Source: a virus
Length of the DNA: 20,743 nt
IMG/VR virus record: IMGVR_UViG_3300032238_000901
Location: 1 to 20,743 of that record
Reading direction: 5' to 3' (one strand)
A model generated the notes under the pieces. That model was not told the origin of the DNA, did not search any database, and was given only the letters and a program-made list of their open reading frames with translations. Below, piece by piece: positions 1,628 through 20,743 of this stretch. How positions within the stretch are numbered: the first letter of the stretch is position 1; each line of letters starts with the position of its first letter. Both the position numbers and the translations under genes were made by a program.

Positions 1628-3139
1628 ATGTCAATACTACCATCAATTCTACTACCATTATTATCTCGCTCTTTATCTGGTAATACGACTCCCCCAACCA
1701 CATGGAATAACCGTGCGCCTGCGGAGTTGCCTACTTACGATCAGATGCAAGCGTACATTAATAGACAAGAAACAAGTCAGGTTCAAAAAAATCAAGAAAC
1801 TGAAAAATTAATTGCCAATAGTCCAGATTTGAGTTCCGCGGTAGATTCTATTATTCAGCAAAATATATTTACTGGTATCAGTAATAATGGTGCAGGGGAT
1901 TTTTATGATATTAATTTGATGTATCATGTGGATCCAAATTCTCAGGATAATTATGATTCTGGAATGCCAGAACCCGATGGGTTTAGACTTTTCTTGATTA
2001 AACCAAATACCCTAAATGTTGAAGGATTATTAAAAGCAACTGGTAAGTTTGTTGAAACGGGCGCGGACTATCTCGGTAAAGGTGCAGATGCGGTTGCTGG
2101 ATTTGTAAAACCAGTTACCGATGCAACATCAATAACAACACCATTTGGTAATTCTTCTGATATGATTAATAATCTTGGTGCCGGAACCAAACAATTAGGA
2201 AAAAGTATAAATTCTTATTTGGCAAATGAGGGTGAACAATTTACCGAATCGGTAAATCAATATACAAGAAATGCATACGATCAACATGCAGGAACTGCAA
2301 ATGCATATTATTCTGCAATACTTCCTATGCCAAAAAATTTGACCGATCAGCATTCACATGAAGTGGATCAATTAATGTTGGGTGTGATGCCAAGAGTTCT
2401 TACTGCTCTGGGTGCTGGATTTTCGGGAGACAGTAAAGGATTTAAAAATGCTGGCGCCAGACGCTCTGGGGGTGGGGTAGTACCAGAATTGGCATCTGCG
2501 GTTGGTGGTGGTATAGGAAAAGCACTGGCAACTGGTGCATTGGAGTTTGGTGCATATGCATATCAAACAGCTAAAGCAAGAGCAAAAGTTGGATTAAATC
2601 CAAATGTTGAAGCAATATATTCTGCTCCAAGAATGAGAAATTGGACATTTAATTTTGAACTGTATCCAAAGAGTGCAACAGAAGTTGGTAATGTACGAGA
2701 TTTTATACAAAGACTAAAACAACACTCGTATCCAATTTCTGTTCTGGGTATTGCTGGACAAAACCAATTATATGCCTATCCAGGCGAAGTATATTTTGAA
2801 TTTAGCGGAAGATATAAAGATAAACTATTTAAGAGTTTGCGTCCTTGTATTATAACAAATATACAAGTGGATTATTCTAATGGTGATCAATATCAACATT
2901 TCCAAGACGGTTCTTCTATTGTGTATACAATAACTTTAGAACTACAAGAAACTCGTCTTCTTGATAGAAATATATTGGTTGATGATGCAAAACAACCAGG
3001 CAAATCATTTGCAAATGAAGATTATAGAAATACAATTAAAAATAACAATACTTTCGCACAAGAAGAAATAACTAAATTCTTGACGAGAGAAAATACTCCA
3101 GAAGAAAATAACAGAACTCCTCCTTTTTTGAGACCATAA
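1628..3139 (+). CDS. gp48: Baseplate tail-tube cap protein gp48
   Basis: A 503-residue protein, longer than T4 gp48 (about 364). The C-terminal half carries the family pattern: NPNVEAIY (324-331), RNWTFNFELYPKS (337-349), then 'YAYPGEVYFEFSG' and a final beta-rich block ending near ELQETRLLDR. ILPMPKNL (231-238) is another typical stretch. In T4, gp48 sits on the central hub with gp54 and forms the platform on which the tail tube polymerises. The extra length lies mostly in residues 125-320, which are rich in Gly, Ala and Ser and include a hydrophobic glycine-rich segment (about 283-310). The start is the first in-frame ATG after the divergent gap; no strong ribosome-binding site is visible, so it is slightly uncertain. 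Confidence 0.82.
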   Translation: MSILPSILLPLLSRSLSGNTTPPTTWNNRAPAELPTYDQMQAYINRQETSQVQKNQETEKLIANSPDLSSAVDSIIQQNIFTGISNNGAGDFYDINLMYHVDPNSQDNYDSGMPEPDGFRLFLIKPNTLNVEGLLKATGKFVETGADYLGKGADAVAGFVKPVTDATSITTPFGNSSDMINNLGAGTKQLGKSINSYLANEGEQFTESVNQYTRNAYDQHAGTANAYYSAILPMPKNLTDQHSHEVDQLMLGVMPRVLTALGAGFSGDSKGFKNAGARRSGGGVVPELASAVGGGIGKALATGALEFGAYAYQTAKARAKVGLNPNVEAIYSAPRMRNWTFNFELYPKSATEVGNVRDFIQRLKQHSYPISVLGIAGQNQLYAYPGEVYFEFSGRYKDKLFKSLRPCIITNIQVDYSNGDQYQHFQDGSSIVYTITLELQETRLLDRNILVDDAKQPGKSFANEDYRNTIKNNNTFAQEEITKFLTRENTPEENNRTPPFLRP

Positions 3140-3149
3140 AGGATAATAT

Positions 3150-3908
3150 ATGCTAACTGCTTACATACCTTATATTATTTCTTCACTTGACGAAAAGACT
3201 GCAATTTATAGAGATATATTTGCATTTAGAAACACATTTACAACTGTTAGCGAAAATCCAGAAGCAACTCTTCGTTATCAGATCAAAGACGGAGATACAC
3301 CCAGATCTCTTGCGAATTTGTTGTATGGATCGGAAAGATATGAATGGGTATTTTATTGTATGAATAGCATAGTCAATCCATACTATGATTGGCCTCTTTC
3401 TGAAGATTCTTTCTATGAAATGATAGAAACAAAATATTTAAATAAACAATGTTTGTTTTTAGAGATAGATTCCTTTACTAATAATTTCACAGTAGGTGAA
3501 ACAATAACTCAAGGAAACACTTCTGCTGTTGTTGATGCTTGGGATAGAACATTGTGCAAGATTACCATCAAAGATGTAGATGGTACATTTGAAGTATCTC
3601 AGCAAGTTGTATCAAATAGTTCTTCTGGTACTGTTGCAAGAATTGTAGAACTAGCAGAAGAAGCACTCCATCACTTTGAAACACCAACTGGAGCAAAACT
3701 AGATCCGTATGCTGGTTTTCTGCAACAATACTTGGATGGTACTTCCGATCTTTATGCAATAATAAACAAAGATTATGAGTTGCAAATCAATGATAGCAAG
3801 CGTAACATATATGTTGTAAAACCAGAATTTGTGAGAATAATGGAAGCAAATCTGTCAAAAAATCTAAATCAGATTGCAACCTTTGAAGCAGAAAATACAT
3901 TGAGATAA
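3150..3908 (+). CDS. gp53: Baseplate wedge protein gp53 (LysM-like)
   Basis: A 252-residue protein; T4 gp53 is 196. Residues 39-97 match the gp53 core, which has a LysM-like fold: YQIKDGDTPRSLANLLYG, then WVFYCMNSIVNPYYDWPLS. In T4, gp53 locks neighbouring wedges together around the hub. Residues 113-166 form an extra beta-rich module (FTVGETITQGNTSAVV ... WDRTL ... GTFEVSQQVV ... SGTVARI) that explains most of the added length and resembles modules in the gp8 and DUF4815 proteins downstream. A good ribosome-binding site (AAGGA) overlaps the 10-base gap after gp48. The C-terminal part, around NDSKRNIYVVKPEFVRIME, is also as expected for the family. Confidence 0.8.
   Translation: MLTAYIPYIISSLDEKTAIYRDIFAFRNTFTTVSENPEATLRYQIKDGDTPRSLANLLYGSERYEWVFYCMNSIVNPYYDWPLSEDSFYEMIETKYLNKQCLFLEIDSFTNNFTVGETITQGNTSAVVDAWDRTLCKITIKDVDGTFEVSQQVVSNSSSGTVARIVELAEEALHHFETPTGAKLDPYAGFLQQYLDGTSDLYAIINKDYELQINDSKRNIYVVKPEFVRIMEANLSKNLNQIATFEAENTLR
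3486..3647 (+). other. Beta-module inserted in gp53, shared with gp8 and the DUF4815 protein
   Basis: Codons 113-166 of gp53 encode a two-part pattern: 'F-VGE-I---TSA-V--W' followed by a strand pair, then 'G-F-V---V---SSG-VA'. Similar patterns occur in gp8 at residues about 526-572 (TFTVGDYVLGTTSASSATIT ... GSF) and 648-708, and in the large protein near 17770-17890 (GRIVSWD ... GRFEV ... ASGTSGQVKYGG). The likeness is judged by eye. Confidence 0.45.
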
Positions 3909-3911
3909 TTC

Positions 3912-5315
3912 ATGGATACACTAAATTGGATAGGTTCTATTGTATTGGAAAATGACACAATATCTTTGGATATTTCACAAGCAGTTGTCAAGATAGAAAT
4001 AACAGAAGATATATTTTCTCCTTATGTGATGGGAGAACTTGTGTTTCAGGAAATGCCATCCAATAACATTATTTCTTCCTTTAAACCAGATGGACTTATT
4101 GGTAAAGGTGAGAATTTAAAACTATCCTTTATTACTAAAATAGGAAACTATCTGCAAGAACTTGATGGTTATCATGTTTATAAGGTGGAACCTGTAGCAC
4201 CAGATGATGCATTGTATGTCAGACAGAAAATGATATATCGTGTGTTTTTCTGTTCGCAAATCATGTTCACTAACGAATTGATTCGTATCAATCGCTACTA
4301 TGAAGGCAAATTCTCAGAAATAGTAAAGCAAATTGCAAAGAACCAATTGCAAATTACTTTGGAAACAGTAGAATCAACCGATAAGAAACAAGCAATTCAT
4401 TTTCCTCGCTTGACTCCTATCGAAGCAATAAACATGTGTGCTTCCAGAAGTACATCTAGTGAGAATGAACATGAGAGCAACTATGTGTTTTACGGTGATA
4501 TTGATCACAAATATCATTTTGTGACTCTTGGTAAATTGATGAAATCAAAACCAATTGTAGGTACAAATGATCTGGATGGTATCACAGTAACAACCCCATT
4601 TGGAATGAACTACACTGAAGAAGGAAACATTGATCAAGGTCCAACCAAATACTTTGCAATGAGATATCAGATCAAATCCATCGCACCATTGATGAATCTT
4701 GTAAATGGAATGTATTCCGCATCAATGATTGAATTTGATGTACTGAAGAGAAAATACAAGAAAATAATATACAACTATTCAGATGAATTTCCAAAGTGCC
4801 GTCACTTGGTAGACAAACCAATTTTAAGTAAAGGTGCAGATTTCATCAGTCTGTCTTATATCAATCCAGATTGTGTTCCATTCTATAACAGTTCTGCACA
4901 GTGGTTGCAAAATGAAAATGAATCTGCGTTGCTTCCTTTCAGCGTTGTAAATGCTACAAAAGAGTATTATCTTCGTCATCGTTCTCAGATGCAGCAGATC
5001 AATCAGATGGGATTGGAAATAGAACTGCCAGGAAATCCTCTGATTAAGATAGGACAAACTATCTACTTTGGTAGACCTCAGTTGGATTTCTCAGGTAAAG
5101 ACGCAGATACAAATAAGAGAAATCCATTCGTAAATGGTAAGTTTTTGATCACCAGAAAGACATCAAAGATAGAAAACAGTAAATCGGAAAACACTTTGGG
5201 TTTTACCCTAAGTACTGTGTTCTCATTGAGAAAAGATTCTGATGTTGGTGTTGATAACATCGGTTCCGAACCAGATAGTTCCACACCACCATTACTAGCA
5301 AAACCAAAGGATTGA
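3912..5315 (+). CDS. gp27-like baseplate hub protein
   Basis: A 467-residue protein; T4 gp27 is 391. The N-terminus (LDISQAVVKIEITEDIFSPY, then 'VMGELVFQEMP') has the pattern common to gp27, Mu gp44 and P2 gpD hub proteins, where a first tube-like beta-barrel opens with a strand followed by an 'EDI-sPy--G-l-f-d' motif. A second barrel region follows, with GLEIELPGNPLIKIGQTIYF near residues 363-382. The gene lies directly before the gp5-like gene, with one base between them; hub and spike are normally adjacent and bind each other as trimers. Sequence likeness to T4 gp27 is weak, so the call rests mainly on motif and position. Its ribosome-binding site is weak (GAGA). It could also be another tube-like hub component, but the gp5 adjacency favours this reading. 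Confidence 0.65.
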   Translation: MDTLNWIGSIVLENDTISLDISQAVVKIEITEDIFSPYVMGELVFQEMPSNNIISSFKPDGLIGKGENLKLSFITKIGNYLQELDGYHVYKVEPVAPDDALYVRQKMIYRVFFCSQIMFTNELIRINRYYEGKFSEIVKQIAKNQLQITLETVESTDKKQAIHFPRLTPIEAINMCASRSTSSENEHESNYVFYGDIDHKYHFVTLGKLMKSKPIVGTNDLDGITVTTPFGMNYTEEGNIDQGPTKYFAMRYQIKSIAPLMNLVNGMYSASMIEFDVLKRKYKKIIYNYSDEFPKCRHLVDKPILSKGADFISLSYINPDCVPFYNSSAQWLQNENESALLPFSVVNATKEYYLRHRSQMQQINQMGLEIELPGNPLIKIGQTIYFGRPQLDFSGKDADTNKRNPFVNGKFLITRKTSKIENSKSENTLGFTLSTVFSLRKDSDVGVDNIGSEPDSSTPPLLAKPKD

Positions 5316-6229: not shown

Positions 6230-8257
6230 ATGGCAGGTTCACAAGCAAATACAGGACAATGGTTCGAACCAGAGACTCCCTACGGAACCGTAAAGGGACA
6301 AAATATACCTCCAAGAGACAATGCTTCCTCCAGCACAGTCTATCCATTCAATAAAGTAACAGAAACAGAATCTGGTCATGTGGTGGAGTTCGATGATACG
6401 CCTGGATCAGAAAGAATCAATATATTCCACAGAAGCGGAACCTTTGAGGAAATTCACCCAAATGGTGATAAAGTTGAAAAGGTCGTAAGAGATCAGTATG
6501 TTTCTGTTCTGAGAGATAGCAATGTCCATATTGATGGTTATTCAAATATAACTGTAGATAAGGGAATGAAGATATATGTCAATCGTGATAATATCGACAA
6601 TTCTGAAAATTCAGCAGTAAATTTTGATGTACATGTTGGAATAAACTCAAATTTAAATTTATATCTGGAAAAAGGAAATTGTAATGTCCGTTTGATTGAT
6701 GGTGATGTCAATCTCCAATTAGACCGCGGAGATATGAATCTGCGTCAGGATCATGGTAATTTCAATCATTTTATAAATGGTGATTATAATCTTGAATGCA
6801 CAGGTCACATGCACACCGTTGTTGGTGGAAACCAAGTAACTGAAATCCGCGGCGCGCGTGATACCAGAGTTGACGGTATGTTTGACAATCTTCATGTCAC
6901 AACTGGTTATAAAGAAACATTAGTTCAAGTCGGAGATCATCGTCTTGAAGTGGGTGGTGGTGTTTATGATCTATTCCATACAAATCATGAAACCAGAGTG
7001 ATGCTTGATCGCATCACTAGTGTATTTGGAAACAGTGATGAAAAAATTATAGGAAACGACACACATCAAGTTACTGGAAATCAAAACGATACTGTAACTG
7101 GATCTCGTTCCACTACAACCGTTGGTAATGTCGAAGTACTGACATCTGGTACAACGAGAGAGACTACCACTGGAACTTTGGATGTTTTAGTCGGCGGAAA
7201 AGCAACAATGAGTTCTTCTACCATGCATTTAAATGGTGGTAGTTCTATCATAGGTTCAGCAGGAGTAATACACTTTAATGGTCCACCCGCATCGGTTGCA
7301 GCACCAGCAGGAGCGGCAATACCTTCGACAGCGGAACCAATTTATGTTCCTGGTCCTCCCGCAGTATGGAAACCATCAACTCCAACCCACCCAAGAAGTC
7401 CACTTGGTCAATTACAAATTGCAAGCGCACAACTCACACAGCAACTTGCAGTTGTAAACGGATTGCAACAAGCAAATACTGCTTTGGGTCAAACATTAAA
7501 TGATTTGAATAATAATGTGTCACAATTTCCTGGCATAGGTCCAGCAGTTAAAACCAACATAGGTACTTCTTTAAGTTTGGCACAATCCGCAACTCAACAA
7601 GCAAATAATTTGGCAAATGGTGCTTCTGGAGTCGTATCGTCTTCCATAGGTGCATCTTCAAGTGCATTGAGTGCAACAAATGCAGCAACAACAGGATTGG
7701 TTGGTGGTTCTGGTGCATCTTCTGGATTAGGTGCTGCTGCCGCAGGAGCAGGAGGAATCGCGGGAGCAATCGGTGGTTCTGCATCCACAATCAGCAGCGG
7801 ATCTTCTTCCCTTGGTGGAATAGGTTCTGTATTTACTGGTATAGGATCTGTAATTGGGGATGTAATTGATGCCATCGTAGAAATTGGTTGTGCGATTGGT
7901 GATTTTATTAATGGATTGATCAATGCTATTCTGAAACCAATTTTAGATGTTGTGAATGGCATATTCTCTAAAATTGCCGAAGTTCTTGGAGCAGTATCCA
8001 AGTTCATAGGTGATATTTTATCTGCAATAGGACAAATCATCAGTTCAATCTTGGGTGCTATCAATGATATCATCAGTAAGATCGTTGATGCTGCTGGTAA
8101 GTTCATTGGTGGTATCTTGGAAGCAATCAACGGATTGCTAAACAATCTATTCAGTGGATTTGGCAACATCGGTTGCGGTGACGGAATCAGAGCAGGACAA
8201 GCACCTGATCTTGGTACTTCCGCCCTTCCAACATCGGTTCCTGGCGGTACTCCATGA
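6230..8257 (+). CDS. Central spike protein: gp5 C-terminal beta-helix with long hydrophobic C-terminal extension
   Basis: A 675-residue protein. Residues 36-82 give the gp5 needle entry pattern (TVYPFNKVTETESGHVVEFD, then DTPGSERINIFHRSG, TFEEIHPNGD). Residues about 88-348 are beta-strand repeats of roughly eight residues with regular Gly/Asn/Asp (GDVNLQLDRGDMNLRQDHGN), as expected for a trimeric beta-helix. Beyond the needle lie a Pro/Ala linker (351-390), a Gln/Asn-rich probable helix (392-460), a Ser/Gly/Ala low-complexity run (465-530) and nine tandem hydrophobic 11-residue repeats (541-639), then a polar tail. T4 gp5C ends with the needle, so about 327 residues are additional. GAGG at 6218-6221, overlapping the previous stop, serves the ATG. 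The gene ends in an ATGA overlap with the PAAR gene. The needle identity is strong; the role of the extension is unknown. Confidence 0.85.
   Translation: MAGSQANTGQWFEPETPYGTVKGQNIPPRDNASSSTVYPFNKVTETESGHVVEFDDTPGSERINIFHRSGTFEEIHPNGDKVEKVVRDQYVSVLRDSNVHIDGYSNITVDKGMKIYVNRDNIDNSENSAVNFDVHVGINSNLNLYLEKGNCNVRLIDGDVNLQLDRGDMNLRQDHGNFNHFINGDYNLECTGHMHTVVGGNQVTEIRGARDTRVDGMFDNLHVTTGYKETLVQVGDHRLEVGGGVYDLFHTNHETRVMLDRITSVFGNSDEKIIGNDTHQVTGNQNDTVTGSRSTTTVGNVEVLTSGTTRETTTGTLDVLVGGKATMSSSTMHLNGGSSIIGSAGVIHFNGPPASVAAPAGAAIPSTAEPIYVPGPPAVWKPSTPTHPRSPLGQLQIASAQLTQQLAVVNGLQQANTALGQTLNDLNNNVSQFPGIGPAVKTNIGTSLSLAQSATQQANNLANGASGVVSSSIGASSSALSATNAATTGLVGGSGASSGLGAAAAGAGGIAGAIGGSASTISSGSSSLGGIGSVFTGIGSVIGDVIDAIVEIGCAIGDFINGLINAILKPILDVVNGIFSKIAEVLGAVSKFIGDILSAIGQIISSILGAINDIISKIVDAAGKFIGGILEAINGLLNNLFSGFGNIGCGDGIRAGQAPDLGTSALPTSVPGGTP
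7850..8173 (+). repeat. Nine-plus tandem 11-residue (hendecad) hydrophobic repeats in spike protein
   Basis: From V541 the protein divides exactly into 11-residue units: VIGDVIDAIVE, IGCAIGDFING, LINAILKPILD, VVNGIFSKIAE, VLGAVSKFIGD, ILSAIGQIISS, ILGAINDIISK, IVDAAGKFIGG, ILEAINGLLNN, then a partial LFSGFGNIG. Positions 1, 2, 5 and 9 are mostly Ile/Val/Leu, position 4 is mostly Ala or Gly, and positions 3, 10 and 11 are mostly small or polar. The DNA copies have diverged, so this is a protein-level repeat. An 11-residue period suits a long straight amphipathic helix, about 99 residues here. Confidence 0.85.
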
Positions 8258-8535
8258 GAAGAGCAATTCGTCAAGGTGTTGATATTTCTTTAGGACATTG
8301 TTACAGTCCCAGACCTTGCAGCACTGGTAGCGAGAATGTTTTTATAAATGCAATTCCAGTTTGCCGAGCGGGGGATTATTATCCAACACACTGCTGTTCT
8401 GGCCACTGCCATGATGGTTTTGCAACCAGTACTTCTAATGTATTTGTAAACAATCGTCCAGTTCATAGATCTGGGGATGAAATTTCATGTGGTGATATTG
8501 CAGGTCACGGTTCTTTGAATGTTTTTATAAATTAA
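8254..8535 (+). CDS. PAAR-repeat spike tip protein (gp5.4-like), Cys-rich
   Basis: A 93-residue protein that should cap the spike with a sharp, metal-stabilised cone, as T4 gp5.4 does. Three copies of a 'GS-NVFIN' strand are visible (25-32, 59-66 as STSNVFVN, 86-93), two of them followed by a PAAR-type turn (AIPVCRAGD and NRPVHRSGD). The likely metal ligands are H15, H46 or H51/H53, and C79 in SCGD. The protein has seven cysteines (16, 22, 37, 47, 48, 52, 79), more than a single PAAR site needs. The ATG overlaps the spike stop (ATGA), implying coupled translation with the protein it caps. The upstream ribosome-binding site is weak, consistent with coupling. Confidence 0.88.
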   Translation: MRRAIRQGVDISLGHCYSPRPCSTGSENVFINAIPVCRAGDYYPTHCCSGHCHDGFATSTSNVFVNNRPVHRSGDEISCGDIAGHGSLNVFIN

Positions 8536-8553: not shown

Positions 8554-8946
8554 ATGGCAACCGAAAAAATATACAAAGATCTAGACTTAGAATTTTCTCC
8601 AAATCCCTTAACAGGAGATGTTCCTAAAAAAACGGGATCAGATGCTATTAAACAGTCTCTGAAAAACATTTTACTTTATAATATTTACGAAAAACCATAT
8701 AATACTAGATTTGATGTAGGTGTTCGCTATTTGCTATTTGAGAATAAAGGATCTGGTTTTGCTGAGTTTTTAAAAGTAAGAATCAAAGTCTTACTAGAAA
8801 CATATGAACCAAGAATCATATTAAATGATGTTATAGTAAAAGGCAATATGGATAATAATTCTTTGACTATTACAATTTATTTTACGCCAAAAGAAACACA
8901 AACCACCGATACACTAGAACTCTTTTTAGGTAAGTACAATGGCTGA
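8554..8946 (+). CDS. gp25: Baseplate wedge protein gp25 (TssE-like)
   Basis: A 130-residue protein, the same size as T4 gp25 (132). It shows the gp25/TssE core: DAIKQSLKNILLYNIYEKPY (30-49), FDVGVRYLLFEN (53-64) and the conserved EPR triad in YEPRI (84-88), followed by a strand pair ending near LELFLGKYNG. In contractile systems gp25 bridges the inner wedge ring to the first sheath ring and the EPR motif is essential to the fold. The last eight bases overlap gp6, so both are translated together. The ATG lacks an obvious ribosome-binding site and lies seven bases after a late promoter box. Confidence 0.9.
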   Translation: MATEKIYKDLDLEFSPNPLTGDVPKKTGSDAIKQSLKNILLYNIYEKPYNTRFDVGVRYLLFENKGSGFAEFLKVRIKVLLETYEPRIILNDVIVKGNMDNNSLTITIYFTPKETQTTDTLELFLGKYNG

Positions 8947-14896: not shown

Positions 14897-17800
14897 ATGG
14901 GTTATAATCACCCCGAAATTCTAGAATCAAATCCTTATTATGATGATTTTAGCGATACCAAGAAGTTCTTGCGTGTTCTGTTTAAGCCTGGCTATGCAGT
15001 ACAAGCAAGAGAACTGACTCAACTACAAACTCTTCTCCAAAATCAAATTGCAAAGTTTGGTACTCACATCTTTAAAGATGGAAGTCAAGTTTTTGGCGGT
15101 GGTATTACTCTATCTGATGCAAATTTCATCAGAACTACAGTATCTTTGATTTCCTCAACTGGTGACTCCGTAGCAGATTTAAAAGGTAAAATACTAACCC
15201 AAGGTAGTTCTGATACTTTGGTTCGTGCAAAGGTACTTGATATAATCACCAGTACATCTGCCGATCCTTATACTATTTTAGTATTACAATATTTCACAGG
15301 AAATCAGTTTGTTTCCAGTGCAACTTCTGAAATTAGCATAGAAGATTATAGCGGATCTATTACCGTATCTTATTCCACCACAGTAACAGATGCAACTGGT
15401 GTATGCCAATATGTTACTGTAGAGTCTGGTATATTCTATGTTGATGGATTCTTTGTGTCAAATGATGCTCAATCTGTTGTTCTCAAGAGAATGGAAGATG
15501 GAGTAAATAAATTCAGAGATGCAATTCTAACGACAGAAGGTATAACAAATAGAATTGGATTTGAAGTAGAACGAACAACAGTCGATGCAGTTGCAGACAC
15601 AACACTAAATGATCCTGCTCGCGGTTTCTACAACTACAACGCACCAGGCGCAGATCGCTATGTCATCAATCTCAATCTGGTAGCACAAGAGTTTGATCCT
15701 GCTTCAGTTGAGCCTGGTGAATTCGTAACTCAAGATTTTGTTGAATTGGCAAGAACAGTAAAGGGTTCTCTTGATTATGTCAAGAAAGTCCCAACCTACG
15801 GTGAGTTGGTAGACACATTAGCAAGAAGAACATACGACGAATCTGGAAACTATACAGTAAAACCATTTGAACTTGAAGTAAAGAATCACTTCAGAAACGA
15901 TGTATATTCATTGTACATTCGTTTTACCGATACCACCTATGCAAACAGCATGTATGCTGGCGACTATATCGTAAATCTTTTAAATGGTGAAGCAGTAAAA
16001 ATTGGATTGATTACATCCATCTCCACCTACACTCCAACCACAGACGAATCAAATGCCACTGCATTGGCATCAGAGTTACCAACTCATGTAATTACGGTTA
16101 CCAGAGAAAAGGTATCTGATTCATATGACTATACTTTCTTTGCAAGCAACGATGCTGTTTGCCATAGAAATGCAAATCAAACAACAGATACCGTAATTGG
16201 TACTGCAAAGAGAGTAATTGCAAGTCGTGATCCAAATGGTGTGTATTCCCCAGAGGGAGAAGGTGGTACAGATGAAAAGTATGTACTATCCGTCAAGCCT
16301 GGAAAAGCATATGTGTTTGGTTACGAATTTGAAACAATCAACAATAGTAATATTGTAGTAGATAAGGCAAGAGAAGATAGCATTGTATCCGTGAATGGTT
16401 ATAATCTAGGATCTGATATCGGAAACTACTTCATTGTTTCCGCAGATGAAGTAAATGGCAATTATGCGTTCAATAATTGGTATTCTACTTTCAATCTTGA
16501 AGATATGCCATACATGAAATTTGGTGGCAGATACATCCGTATTACCCTACCATATCAAGAAGAAAACAAGAGATCCTTTACTTGCAAATATTGGTCTGCT
16601 CTCCCAACAGATCAAGCATCGGCATTCAGAAGCGTTGCATTCGTCACAACAGATGCTGCACTTACAACAGAATCTATCGCAGGACATGCGGACAAGAACG
16701 ATACTACAAACTATCTTGATCTGATTGACTTTAGCGGCGAAGCAGCATCTACTGATGGTCTGCACGATGTTGGTTATGTTCGTCCACAAAATACAGTAAG
16801 AACACAATCCAAGTATATTGGTGGTGGTACTTCTCTCTCATCCTACGAAATGGTAAACATGAGTAATGATGTTGAGATTGATATTTCCAGAATGGTATTC
16901 ACCGATCCTTGGCACGGCGATATAACTGTTGCATATAATTCTAATTCTGAAGAAAACAGTACAGATAGTACATATTCTGCTACAACTTATGCAATCAAGC
17001 AAATTAAATGCTTGGATACTGCAAATCCAACAGCAATTCAGGTAACAACAGGTAATGCACTTCGTTGGGTTCCTGCTTCTGCATCTGGTGCAAGTTCTAG
17101 TGCAGGAAGCACATTGTTCGTAAAGGTAACTGGTTCTGTTGATTATAACGGAAGTACTGCATCTGGAACTGCTCACTTTAGCATAGATGATGGTGTTGTA
17201 TTCACAGATCCAGCAACAACAACTAGTCCAATTTCATATGGTTCAAGTGTTGCTTATGTTGTTCGTGAAACAACAGCAAAGAAAATAATTGTAAGAAGTG
17301 CAAACGATCTAGGATGCATCTCTACTGCTGCTTGCACAGACGAAGGACAGGGTGGATTCTATTCTGTCGGTGATATTGTAACACAAAACTACACAAAGAA
17401 TGGCGTAGAAGTTCAAGCAACTGGTGAAATTCTTGCTATCGGTGGAGATTTCAATACACCAAACACAAACATCGAATTATACATTCAAACATCTGGTGTA
17501 AATCAAATATACGGTGTAAACGATACAGAACTTGGTACAGATGGTATCACTGATCTTGGATGCTTGATTGGTCCATGTGCAGTATACAAACCAAGATCTA
17601 GTCTCATGCTCAACAACCCAACATGCGGTGAACTTGTAAGAATTGGTTTTAGAGACTCCGAGAATGTTGGCGGTTATACTGCAAACGAAACCGCATTCCA
17701 ATACAACTATCTTGCATTGGAAGAAACCGCAGGAGTTCCAAAATACCTAGACATCAATCTGGTAAAGGGAAGAATCGTATCATGGGACGAAAAGAGCAAG

Positions 17801-20743
17801 GAACTTATTGTTCTTGAAACTCAAGGTAGATTTGAAGTTGCAAATGGAACAGTATATCAACTTGCTTCTGGTACATCTGGACAAGTAAAATACGGTGGTA
17901 GAGGATGGGATAAGTTTAAAACAAAATATGCAAAGACTACCGCTGGATCTGCAACAATATATGATATTGAAAAGGTAAGTGGTGTATTCATCGACATCCA
18001 AGATTCTGCTACAAAGAATTTTGTAGAAACTTCATATTCTGTATTTGATAATACATCATATGGTAAGGGTGAATTGCTAACACAAGTTGCAGTACCATCT
18101 CTGAACAATTATGTTGAGGGTAAAGACTTCAGCGTAAATGAAGAAATTTTACAACATGTTTCTTCTAGTCAAACTGCCAGAGGTATTATTCTTTCTTGGA
18201 CACACAAAGATTCAACAAATCCAGCAGATACGAGTGATACAGTAATGATCATTCAACCAACCAATGAAGTATCCTTTGTTGTTGGTAATCCAGATGCAGT
18301 AAACAAACCAATAATGAGTGCGGTTTCTTCTTCTGTATCTTATGATGTATCTGCTATCACCGCAACAAAAACAAAAGAAATCATAGGATGCGGTAGAATT
18401 CGTGTTCTAAGAAGACAAGAGCAGGATGCATATCAGGCATTCTTCTTTGACATCAAGATGGATTATTTGCCAGATTTGTCAAGAAGATACAACTTGAACG
18501 AAGTATCAGAATTTTACTATGAAGATTCTTTTAAGAATGAATTGATTAGTGATTTTGAAGATCAAGATATTCAACTTTCTGCTGGTGTTTCCCAGACAGA
18601 TTATATGTTTAGTGTGCATCCAACACTAGGAATTGATACATCCGCAAGCACAGATACCTTTGTATACAGTAAGGTATATGATACTGACATAAATTCTCTT
18701 ATCTTTAGATTACCAGGCAGCGATGCTGTAAAGAATGTCGGTGAAATGGATTATAGAATCCAAAGACAATTCAAGTTGTCTTCAACTTCCGACTTTACCA
18801 CAACTTCACTAGTATTCTCTACTCAAGATCCATATGTACGCTTTATTGGTGGAGAATCGTCTACTGTCGGTAAAGTAGATTCAAATGATCTAATAGAACA
18901 TTATGCTTTAGTTTTGACTTTTGCATCTGGTGCAGAATATATTGAAGATTTGACTTCTGGTGATTATACAATTACAACTAATAATTATTCATCACCAACA
19001 TCAAATTCTACATTTAGCATCACTAGAAAAGATAGTGCAATCTGGAGAAACACAGGTATTCTCACTGCACAACTTATTGCAAATTTAAATGTAAATCCAA
19101 GTCCAAATCCAGTAAGAACCAAGACAATCAAGAGAAACACAGAAACAGTAACTCTAAAGAAAACAAAAGATGGATTCTGGAAAGCATTATTGTCATTCTC
19201 TGATATCGTAGGATTGGATAAAGTTACGGCAATTTCTTCCAACACAAATGTAAAAGAACAATTTGAATTGTTCAACGGACAAACCGATAATCTATACGAT
19301 CTAGGACAAATCACACTCAAGAGTGAATATCTTGAAGATAATATTCCTGCGTTTACAAATTATCAAGTCGTTGTATCTTATCGTTATTTCTATCATTCTG
19401 GTGTAGGTCCAATTACTAAGAATTCATATGCAAATATTGATTACAAGAATATTCCATATTATACAAGTCCATCTACGGGACAGACCTATAAGTTGGATTC
19501 CGTAATTGATCTTCGTCCATTGAAGGCATCTTCTGGTGGATTGGAACACAAGTGGATTCCTGCTCCCGCATCTTCCTTCAATGTAGATTATGAATACTAC
19601 CTTGGAAGAGCATATAAACTCGCAATCACAAGAGATCTGAAGTTCAAGTTGATTGGTGGAATTCCAGCATTTAATCCAGAACTACCACCAGATGATGAAA
19701 ATGCAATGACAATATATGATATTGTTGCAGAACCATACATCTATGATAGAAATGGTATCAATGCCACAATGATAAACAATCGTCGCTACACCATGAAAGA
19801 CATCATGGGATTGGACGAAAGAATTCAATCTCTTGAGAAATTCACAGCACTGAATTCATTAGAAAGACAAGCAGAAGCAAGTCAAATTATTGATCCTACC
19901 ACACAACTACCAAGAGTCGTAAGTTCTATTTTGGTTGACAATTTCGGTAGTCATGCAAAGGGAGATACCGTACATACTCAATACAATGTAAGTGTTGATC
20001 CTGAAGCAAATCTAATCCGTCCACCATTCAAGATGCATTCTGTCGAATTAACTTCTGATTATGGAACTGCACTATCTGATGTTGTAAAGACTGAAGATAA
20101 TGTTGTCATGTTGAATTATTCTTCAACACCAATGGTATCACAACTTTCCTCCAGTGGTGTGCAAAAGATCAATTCGTTCAATGATATTTCTTGGATCGGT
20201 ACTCTAAAGATGACTCCATCCACAGATTCGTGGTTTGATACAACAGTACAACCAGATGTTCGTGCAAATGAAAATAATTCTAACGATGCAATTATAAGCG
20301 TAGAACCATCTGCTGCCAATAATAACAATAATGGTACTGGAATGGAATTTGGATTCTGGAACAGAAAATGGCACTCAAATAGAAAGAAAAAGAAGAATCC
20401 AACCAGAACTGCTGAGATTTTCCGCAAGCATGCCTTTAAAAGAAAAACAATTAAAGGTATTACTCAAAACGAAAAACCAGTATCTGCTGATACCTCCTCT
20501 GCAAATAAAGTAAACATTGGAGAAAACAAAATTGCAGATAGATCCGTTGTTCCTTACATCAGAGAAAAGACAATTACCGCAGTTGCAGAAGGACTCAGAC
20601 CATATTCTGTGGTATATGTATTTTTTGATGATGTAGATAGTCACTTCATCCCATTACTTCAGAAAGGTGAACGAGCCGATATTAGTGTTTTCTTCATAAA
20701 ATGCTCTTTTTTTCTTAAAGAGAGTAAGGCCCGTAAACCAATA
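14897..20743 (+). CDS. Giant DUF4815-type baseplate/tail structural protein (3' end cut by window)
   Basis: The frame is open for 1949 codons to the right edge with no stop, so the protein is longer. The N-terminus (MGYNHPEILESNPYYDDFSD, then FLRVLFKPGYAVQARELTQL and QNQIAKFGTHIFKDGSQVFG) and the motifs APGADRY (249-255) and VKPGKAYVFGYEFE (466-479) are the hallmarks of the DUF4815 family of environmental T4-like phages. Further family-like stretches are IGCGRIRVLRRQEQDAYQAF, NNRRYTMKDIMGLDERIQSL, SWIGTLKMTPSTDSWFDT (about 1765-1782) and VVPYIREKTITAV (from 1884). Between them lie beta-rich modules. Residues 1808-1860 include an Asn run and a strongly basic patch (NRKKKKN at 1828-1834). The role is not known in detail; the position after gp8 suggests a peripheral baseplate or fibre-network component, perhaps taking the place of T4 gp9/gp10. 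Very few cysteines are present. Confidence 0.8.
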   Translation, partial: MGYNHPEILESNPYYDDFSDTKKFLRVLFKPGYAVQARELTQLQTLLQNQIAKFGTHIFKDGSQVFGGGITLSDANFIRTTVSLISSTGDSVADLKGKILTQGSSDTLVRAKVLDIITSTSADPYTILVLQYFTGNQFVSSATSEISIEDYSGSITVSYSTTVTDATGVCQYVTVESGIFYVDGFFVSNDAQSVVLKRMEDGVNKFRDAILTTEGITNRIGFEVERTTVDAVADTTLNDPARGFYNYNAPGADRYVINLNLVAQEFDPASVEPGEFVTQDFVELARTVKGSLDYVKKVPTYGELVDTLARRTYDESGNYTVKPFELEVKNHFRNDVYSLYIRFTDTTYANSMYAGDYIVNLLNGEAVKIGLITSISTYTPTTDESNATALASELPTHVITVTREKVSDSYDYTFFASNDAVCHRNANQTTDTVIGTAKRVIASRDPNGVYSPEGEGGTDEKYVLSVKPGKAYVFGYEFETINNSNIVVDKAREDSIVSVNGYNLGSDIGNYFIVSADEVNGNYAFNNWYSTFNLEDMPYMKFGGRYIRITLPYQEENKRSFTCKYWSALPTDQASAFRSVAFVTTDAALTTESIAGHADKNDTTNYLDLIDFSGEAASTDGLHDVGYVRPQNTVRTQSKYIGGGTSLSSYEMVNMSNDVEIDISRMVFTDPWHGDITVAYNSNSEENSTDSTYSATTYAIKQIKCLDTANPTAIQVTTGNALRWVPASASGASSSAGSTLFVKVTGSVDYNGSTASGTAHFSIDDGVVFTDPATTTSPISYGSSVAYVVRETTAKKIIVRSANDLGCISTAACTDEGQGGFYSVGDIVTQNYTKNGVEVQATGEILAIGGDFNTPNTNIELYIQTSGVNQIYGVNDTELGTDGITDLGCLIGPCAVYKPRSSLMLNNPTCGELVRIGFRDSENVGGYTANETAFQYNYLALEETAGVPKYLDINLVKGRIVSWDEKSKELIVLETQGRFEVANGTVYQLASGTSGQVKYGGRGWDKFKTKYAKTTAGSATIYDIEKVSGVFIDIQDSATKNFVETSYSVFDNTSYGKGELLTQVAVPSLNNYVEGKDFSVNEEILQHVSSSQTARGIILSWTHKDSTNPADTSDTVMIIQPTNEVSFVVGNPDAVNKPIMSAVSSSVSYDVSAITATKTKEIIGCGRIRVLRRQEQDAYQAFFFDIKMDYLPDLSRRYNLNEVSEFYYEDSFKNELISDFEDQDIQLSAGVSQTDYMFSVHPTLGIDTSASTDTFVYSKVYDTDINSLIFRLPGSDAVKNVGEMDYRIQRQFKLSSTSDFTTTSLVFSTQDPYVRFIGGESSTVGKVDSNDLIEHYALVLTFASGAEYIEDLTSGDYTITTNNYSSPTSNSTFSITRKDSAIWRNTGILTAQLIANLNVNPSPNPVRTKTIKRNTETVTLKKTKDGFWKALLSFSDIVGLDKVTAISSNTNVKEQFELFNGQTDNLYDLGQITLKSEYLEDNIPAFTNYQVVVSYRYFYHSGVGPITKNSYANIDYKNIPYYTSPSTGQTYKLDSVIDLRPLKASSGGLEHKWIPAPASSFNVDYEYYLGRAYKLAITRDLKFKLIGGIPAFNPELPPDDENAMTIYDIVAEPYIYDRNGINATMINNRRYTMKDIMGLDERIQSLEKFTALNSLERQAEASQIIDPTTQLPRVVSSILVDNFGSHAKGDTVHTQYNVSVDPEANLIRPPFKMHSVELTSDYGTALSDVVKTEDNVVMLNYSSTPMVSQLSSSGVQKINSFNDISWIGTLKMTPSTDSWFDTTVQPDVRANENNSNDAIISVEPSAANNNNNGTGMEFGFWNRKWHSNRKKKKNPTRTAEIFRKHAFKRKTIKGITQNEKPVSADTSSANKVNIGENKIADRSVVPYIREKTITAVAEGLRPYSVVYVFFDDVDSHFIPLLQKGERADISVFFIKCSFFLKESKARKPI

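Follow-up and report, generated by a model that had tools for sequence, protein, structure and literature searches.

A probable amphipathic helical passenger, bounded by two cysteines, on a T4-type phage spike that lacks a lysozyme domain

The baseplate locus and its split gp5

The window analyzed here comprises the 20,743 nucleotides of the IMG/VR virus record IMGVR_UViG_3300032238_000901. It carries a T4-like baseplate cluster that encodes the tail tube cap, gp53, a hub protein, an OB protein, the spike, a PAAR protein, gp25 and more wedge genes (Table 1). The trimerization domain and the beta-helix needle of a gp5-type protein are present in the spike, and the OB fold is present as well, but in a separate upstream protein. 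Matches of the latter to PHROG 430/694 are confined to residues 1-106, and its 300 residues show no recognizable lysozyme or peptidase domain and no lysis family in Pfam or PHROG. Similarly, no lysozyme domain lies between OB fold and needle, and neither the OB protein nor the spike has a credible lysis family in the two collections. A lone PHROG "endolysin" match of the spike (phrog_971, E 0.002) falls on the hendecad segment itself and was rejected as pattern-driven. T4 gp5 with its gp5.4 PAAR tip resembles the window in OB fold, trimerization domain, beta-helix, PAAR gene and gp25 as the next gene. The window differs from T4 in the division of gp5 over two genes, the lack of a lysozyme domain and a 325-residue C-terminal extension containing the hendecad domain.

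Table 1. Features of the hub-spike region (window coordinates; the last column gives the basis of each assignment).
Feature	Position	Strand	Basis
OB-fold hub protein, N-terminal part of split gp5, 300 aa	5317..6219	+	Pfam Gp5_OB 1.7e-14
Central spike, gp5 C-terminal half plus C-terminal extension, 675 aa	6230..8257	+	Pfam Gp5_trimer_C 1.5e-7, PHROG 430 1.8e-42
Spike residues 1-352, conserved N-terminal segment and trimeric beta-helix needle	6230..7285	+	Gp5_trimer_C match, homolog alignment
Spike residues 353-391, Pro-rich linker with conserved YVPG....W motif	7286..7402	+	sequence and alignment
Spike residues 392-488, Gln/Asn/Ala-rich region	7403..7693	+	low-confidence model (helical), periodicity
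Spike residues 489-525, Gly/Ala/Ser-rich, length varies among homologs	7694..7804	+	alignment
Spike residues 526-641, periodic amphipathic helix (nine-unit core 7850-8146)	7805..8152	+	periodicity tests, homolog alignment, dN/dS 0.02-0.25
Cys554, N-terminal bounding cysteine, GCAI motif	7889..7891	+	invariant in 22/22 aligned homologs
Cys649, C-terminal bounding cysteine, GCG motif	8174..8176	+	invariant in 22/22 aligned homologs
PAAR tip protein	8254..8535	+	Pfam PAAR_motif 9.4e-9, PHROG 281 7.8e-23
Baseplate wedge gp25, gene after PAAR	8554..8946	+	Pfam GPW_gp25 7.2e-8

The end of the needle at residue 352 was judged from the homolog alignment. Residues 353-488 behind it have no relative in the phage collection searched, and within this stretch residues 392-488 show a weak periodicity near 3.5 and are helical in a low-confidence model. 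The PAAR start codon overlaps the spike stop codon (ATGA). Opposite the repeat region, the minus strand has an open frame of 226 aa (7594-8274), probably a by-product of codon composition. A very large baseplate-type ORF (14897-20743) is cut by the window end; its start resembles proteins of 2,400-2,500 aa found at the same place in L192 and L194.

The 11-residue repeat and its conservation

Spike residues 541-639 form nine ungapped 11-residue units. Ile, Val or Leu occupies positions 1 and 9 in 9/9 units and positions 2 and 5 in 8/9, and Ala or Gly occupies position 4 in 8/9. This pattern, first noted in a first-pass annotation of the DNA, is confirmed: 42 of the 45 named positions fit, whereas 20,000 shuffles averaged 17 and never exceeded 28. 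The repeats had also been called exact and placed at 7850-8173. The phase is indeed exact and the start holds, but the nine units end at 8146, the last nine residues not making up a full unit, and the sequence is not exact. Only about 3 of 11 residues are shared between units (mean 3.1/11 identical), DNA identity is 43%, and Tandem Repeats Finder detected no DNA-level tandem repeats in the region. Hence, the repeat is either old or a pattern kept by selection.

Across residues 531-655, the period-11 hydropathy signal lies 14.9 SD above that of shuffled sequences, none of 5,000 shuffles reaches the observed power at 11/3, and the best period is 3.65 residues. The periodic stretch (about residues 526-641) is somewhat longer than the nine-unit core; its bounding cysteines are Cys554 and Cys649, and the segment contains no Trp.

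IMG/VR relatives at 61-67% identity align over the full length, and their repeat block is free of gaps. In a wider survey by needle motif (79 loci), the spikes form two groups, one with a score above 21 and a long C-terminal extension, the other scoring below 5.5 and either lacking the extension or cut by the contig end. Complete carriers have spikes of 628-766 aa. In 22 distinct sequences (the window and 21 relatives), the helix has a cysteine at either end, at a spacing of 88-96 residues, and the two are kept even where the helix is only 25-40% identical. Varying copy number among relatives had been named as possible support, but the segment does not drift freely in length: the spacing between the cysteines is mostly 95-96 or 88-90, and the close pair L107/L111 differs by exactly 7 residues. 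Judging from a dN/dS of 0.02-0.25 where dS could be estimated (nine gap-free close homologs), the repeat region is under purifying selection. Parts of two long related contigs were sampled, and of the roughly 75 ORFs of at least 150 aa in them, the spike alone scored above 10.

On a tree of the needle region, carriers form two groups with non-carriers between them; thus, there was more than one gain or loss of the domain, although the printed number of changes is inflated because L110 (carrier) and L115 (truncated) were unlabelled. A PAAR gene follows the spike in all carriers with downstream sequence except the L131/L132 lineage, whereas in the sisters that lack the domain (L038, L040) the gene directly after the spike is gp25, and PAAR is absent. 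As carriers and sisters differ by clade, this link between domain and PAAR may be inheritance alone. The L038 and L040 spike ORFs (1947-3635 and 2862-4556) have about 100 residues of Gly-rich low complexity at the N-terminus. In the carrier lineage that lacks PAAR, the PAAR position is taken by a protein of 208 aa (L132:4468-5091) that has a hydrophobic stretch at its N-terminus.

Similar modules in cyanophage gp5 and tape measure proteins

The first-pass annotation knew of no such repeats in a gp5-type spike, but most of the sampled cyanophage gp5 proteins carry a similar module in the hub protein. This Cys-containing hydrophobic helical module occurs in gp5 of S-CAM3, S-RIM2, S-H9-2, S-RIM44 and others (PHROG 1922 and 694). 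It sits after the OB fold, either upstream of the needle or in a separate hub protein, whereas the module of the window is at the spike C-terminus. A profile of the window family, run against whole cyanophage genomes, matched gp5 in 7/8, and gp5 was the sole gene matched in those seven (E 2.4e-11 to 3.4e-5). Among the control T4-like genomes, IME08, Melnitz, Mosig, phiM9 and a Variovorax phage gave no profile match; the single match, a weak one outside gp5, came from Rhizobium phage P10VF. The profile also matches siphophage tape measure proteins (E 2e-12), so that a match alone cannot separate common descent from a shared pattern. The gp5 of P-RSM3 was rejected as a carrier: it is only weakly periodic, and the profile weakly matched another gene. 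In this phage a profile match lies in a 1076-aa open frame that is not gp5 (HQ634176.1, 75100-75348, minus strand; locus L207).

The S-CAM3 module has GCAI at its start and GITC at its end, 87 residues apart, and those of S-H9-2 and S-RIM44 begin with GCSI and end with GITC. This clear two-cysteine layout is found in these three phages and not in every cyanophage. Alignment with hhalign against three cyanophage gp5 proteins gave a probability of 95.5 (E 1.5e-8), with both cysteines co-aligned in some window-cyanophage pairs only. Pairwise scores against shuffles that keep residue classes reached z = 5.9 for the window and S-CAM3, many other pairs giving 1-3. Homology of the window module with the S-CAM3-type gp5 module is likely, and with other cyanophage gp5 modules it is unproven. 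The module is widespread in cyanophage gp5 and, as far as found, apparently undescribed; no paper on it was found in the literature searched, which included few subscription journals.

The segment matches tape measure PHROG 5493 (E 3.9e-11) and has an 11-residue hydrophobic repeat like these proteins, but it belongs to the spike and is not a long separate protein that sets tail length. Siphophage tape measure proteins with 11-residue repeats share the period, a similar hydropathy and a low charge with the window; their repeats have W/F marker residues and variable copy number (PMC3271669). The window segment differs in having no Trp, a narrow length range, two bounding cysteines and a location on the spike. 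The earlier reading of a conserved amphipathic helical repeat behind a gp5-type beta-helix, resembling tape measure repeats, is thus supported, and the resemblance itself may be convergence of amphipathic 11-residue patterns.

The window helix has a mean hydropathy of +1.06 with 14% charged residues, compared with +0.96 to +1.38 and 5-8% for siphophage tape measure repeats, and -1.14 and 30% computed for the soluble hendecads of phiX174 H (sequence from PMC7354561). Compared with ordinary soluble coiled coils, the window helix has a far higher hydrophobicity and a lower charge. The H protein forms a DNA-conducting tube of ten polar copies, in which hendecads are mixed with heptads and a long helix crosses the cell wall (PMC7354561). 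For the window helix, which is hydrophobic, three copies are expected, and no homology is claimed. On a helical wheel, positions 8-1-5-9-2 together with Ala at 4 make one continuous wide hydrophobic face, which fits a buried bundle or a bundle opening onto a surface such as a membrane.

Searches for known families gave no assignment of the segment. Pfam Baculo_PEP_C, DUF7217, apolipophorin, perilipin and similar matches were below the cut-off and composition-driven (for DUF7217, PF23854, 20.6 bits against a gathering cut-off of 29), and NCBIfam gave weak, mixed matches only.

Possible roles of the segment

The hub-spike complex offers two positions for passengers, one separating the OB fold from the needle and one behind the needle. 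Like the window, Methylophilales phage Melnitz has a split gp5 with a Pro-rich linker and a C-terminal passenger, followed by a PAAR-like gene. It differs in that its passenger is an endolysin-like peptidase domain (PHROG 894, 7.9e-13), whereas that of the window is the hendecad helix; the Melnitz OB protein has a VanY-like domain. Endolysin-like domains behind the needle were found in Melnitz and three IMG/VR spikes (PHROG 894, 8e-13 to 8e-8); the domains before the needle are GH19-type or VanY-like, GH19-type in the three IMG/VR spikes tested. Further sampled spikes show peptidase-like signatures, by pattern only. Elsewhere in the contigs of the longer relatives, which are fragments, no hydrolase of the Melnitz type (PHROG 894) was found. 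In cyanophages, the module lies at the site of the T4 gp5 lysozyme, suggesting a non-enzymatic role in envelope passage; no lysis family was detected in the stretch after the OB fold of the two cyanophage gp5 proteins tested (S-CAM3 and S-RIM2).

We consider it very probable that the segment, bounded by its two cysteines, is a conserved amphipathic helical passenger on a T4-type spike without lysozyme, and that it is similar to the cyanophage gp5 module. In this layout, the beta-helix needle would be followed by the Pro-rich linker and then by a bundle of amphipathic helices that has a defined length and is closed off by the two cysteines. The passenger would take a hub-spike position that holds peptidoglycan hydrolases elsewhere and act physically rather than enzymatically.

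Our best guess for its role, put forward tentatively, is an amphipathic bundle, stored at first, that comes into contact with a membrane once puncture has occurred. The three copies might be kept next to the needle as a tethered bundle of helices and set free in the periplasm as the needle crosses the outer membrane. The freed I/V/L/A face could then contact the membrane or join a conduit from the tail tube to the inner membrane. A job of this kind has been proposed for hydrophobic parts of tape measure proteins, e.g., a membrane channel formed by the hydrophobic part of T5 pb2 (PMC10038345). The repeat, phase and two cysteines kept in 22 homologs, the continuous hydrophobic face with its tape-measure-like hydropathy, the hydrolases in the same positions and the similar module in cyanophage gp5 would be consistent with membrane contact. 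A membrane-active or pore-forming element had been proposed before; plain transmembrane insertion is disfavored by composition, and of that proposal membrane contact is retained as the tentative part. No transmembrane segment was detected, the lowest 21-residue insertion estimate being +4.3 to +9.2 (a sum of published scale values), nor is the segment cationic-lytic in character, with a net charge of -12 to +1, mostly -4 to -12. Moreover, the conserved length and the indels that keep the phase fit a rigid structural bundle equally well.

Such a bundle is almost as likely as membrane contact. Here, a coiled coil or a trimer of helical hairpins would stiffen the needle, seat PAAR or dock the spike and play no membrane role. 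The hydrophobic positions 1, 2, 5 and 9 correspond to d, e, h and a of the canonical hendecad coiled coil, all four of which are expected to be hydrophobic. The narrow set of cysteine spacings, the difference of exactly 7 residues between L107 and L111, the PAAR linkage in all but one lineage and PDB profile matches that include designed bundles and coronavirus S2 point in the same direction. AlphaFold2 monomers reached a pLDDT of 33 for the full spike and 45 for a 124-residue segment with 22 homologs; the latter model shows two helices and a turn, at this low confidence a hint at most. However, soluble coiled coils usually have a narrower hydrophobic face and more charge, and the same positions elsewhere hold enzymes, not struts.

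A contact with, or replacement for, the tape measure protein in the tube lumen is improbable. The profile matches tape measure proteins as well as cyanophage gp5, but the extension begins behind the needle and is followed by the PAAR gene, and the C-terminus of T4 gp5 is at the tip, away from the tube. The lumenal bundle or tape measure contact suggested in the first-pass annotation fits this expected distal C-terminus poorly. An intramolecular chaperone for needle trimerization that is later cut off, for which the C-terminal position and the cleavage of T4 gp5 during assembly offer a precedent, is highly improbable: the closest non-carrying sister spikes fold without the segment, and the cyanophage module either precedes the needle or belongs to another protein. 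The low-complexity residues 489-525 next to the repeat might suggest that the pattern arose by chance or by drift of low-complexity sequence, a reading refuted by homologs that keep the 11-residue period and are not of low complexity, as well as by the distance from shuffles, the dN/dS values and the invariant cysteines.

The favored membrane-contact reading bears on how contractile-tailed phages move DNA past the inner membrane once the needle has pierced the outer one. If the module acts on membranes, the hub-spike would carry its own penetration element, which is testable in cultured cyanophages. A broader proposal, which we regard as unlikely, is that cyanophages and relatives have replaced the gp5 tail lysozyme with a membrane-acting amphipathic helical module that can flank the needle on either side; contacting or opening the inner membrane would then fall to the hub-spike instead of the tape measure protein. 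Cyanophage gp5 is routinely annotated as "tail lysozyme". The two cyanophage gp5 proteins checked in full (S-CAM3 and S-RIM2) have a hydrophobic helical module and no lysozyme domain, suggesting that many gp5 proteins of cyanophages carry a misleading annotation. In S-SM2, an annotated transglycosylase-domain protein (L178:714-3251), a candidate displaced cell wall hydrolase, is encoded a few genes upstream of gp5, and S-H9-2 has an annotated peptidase in a similar place.
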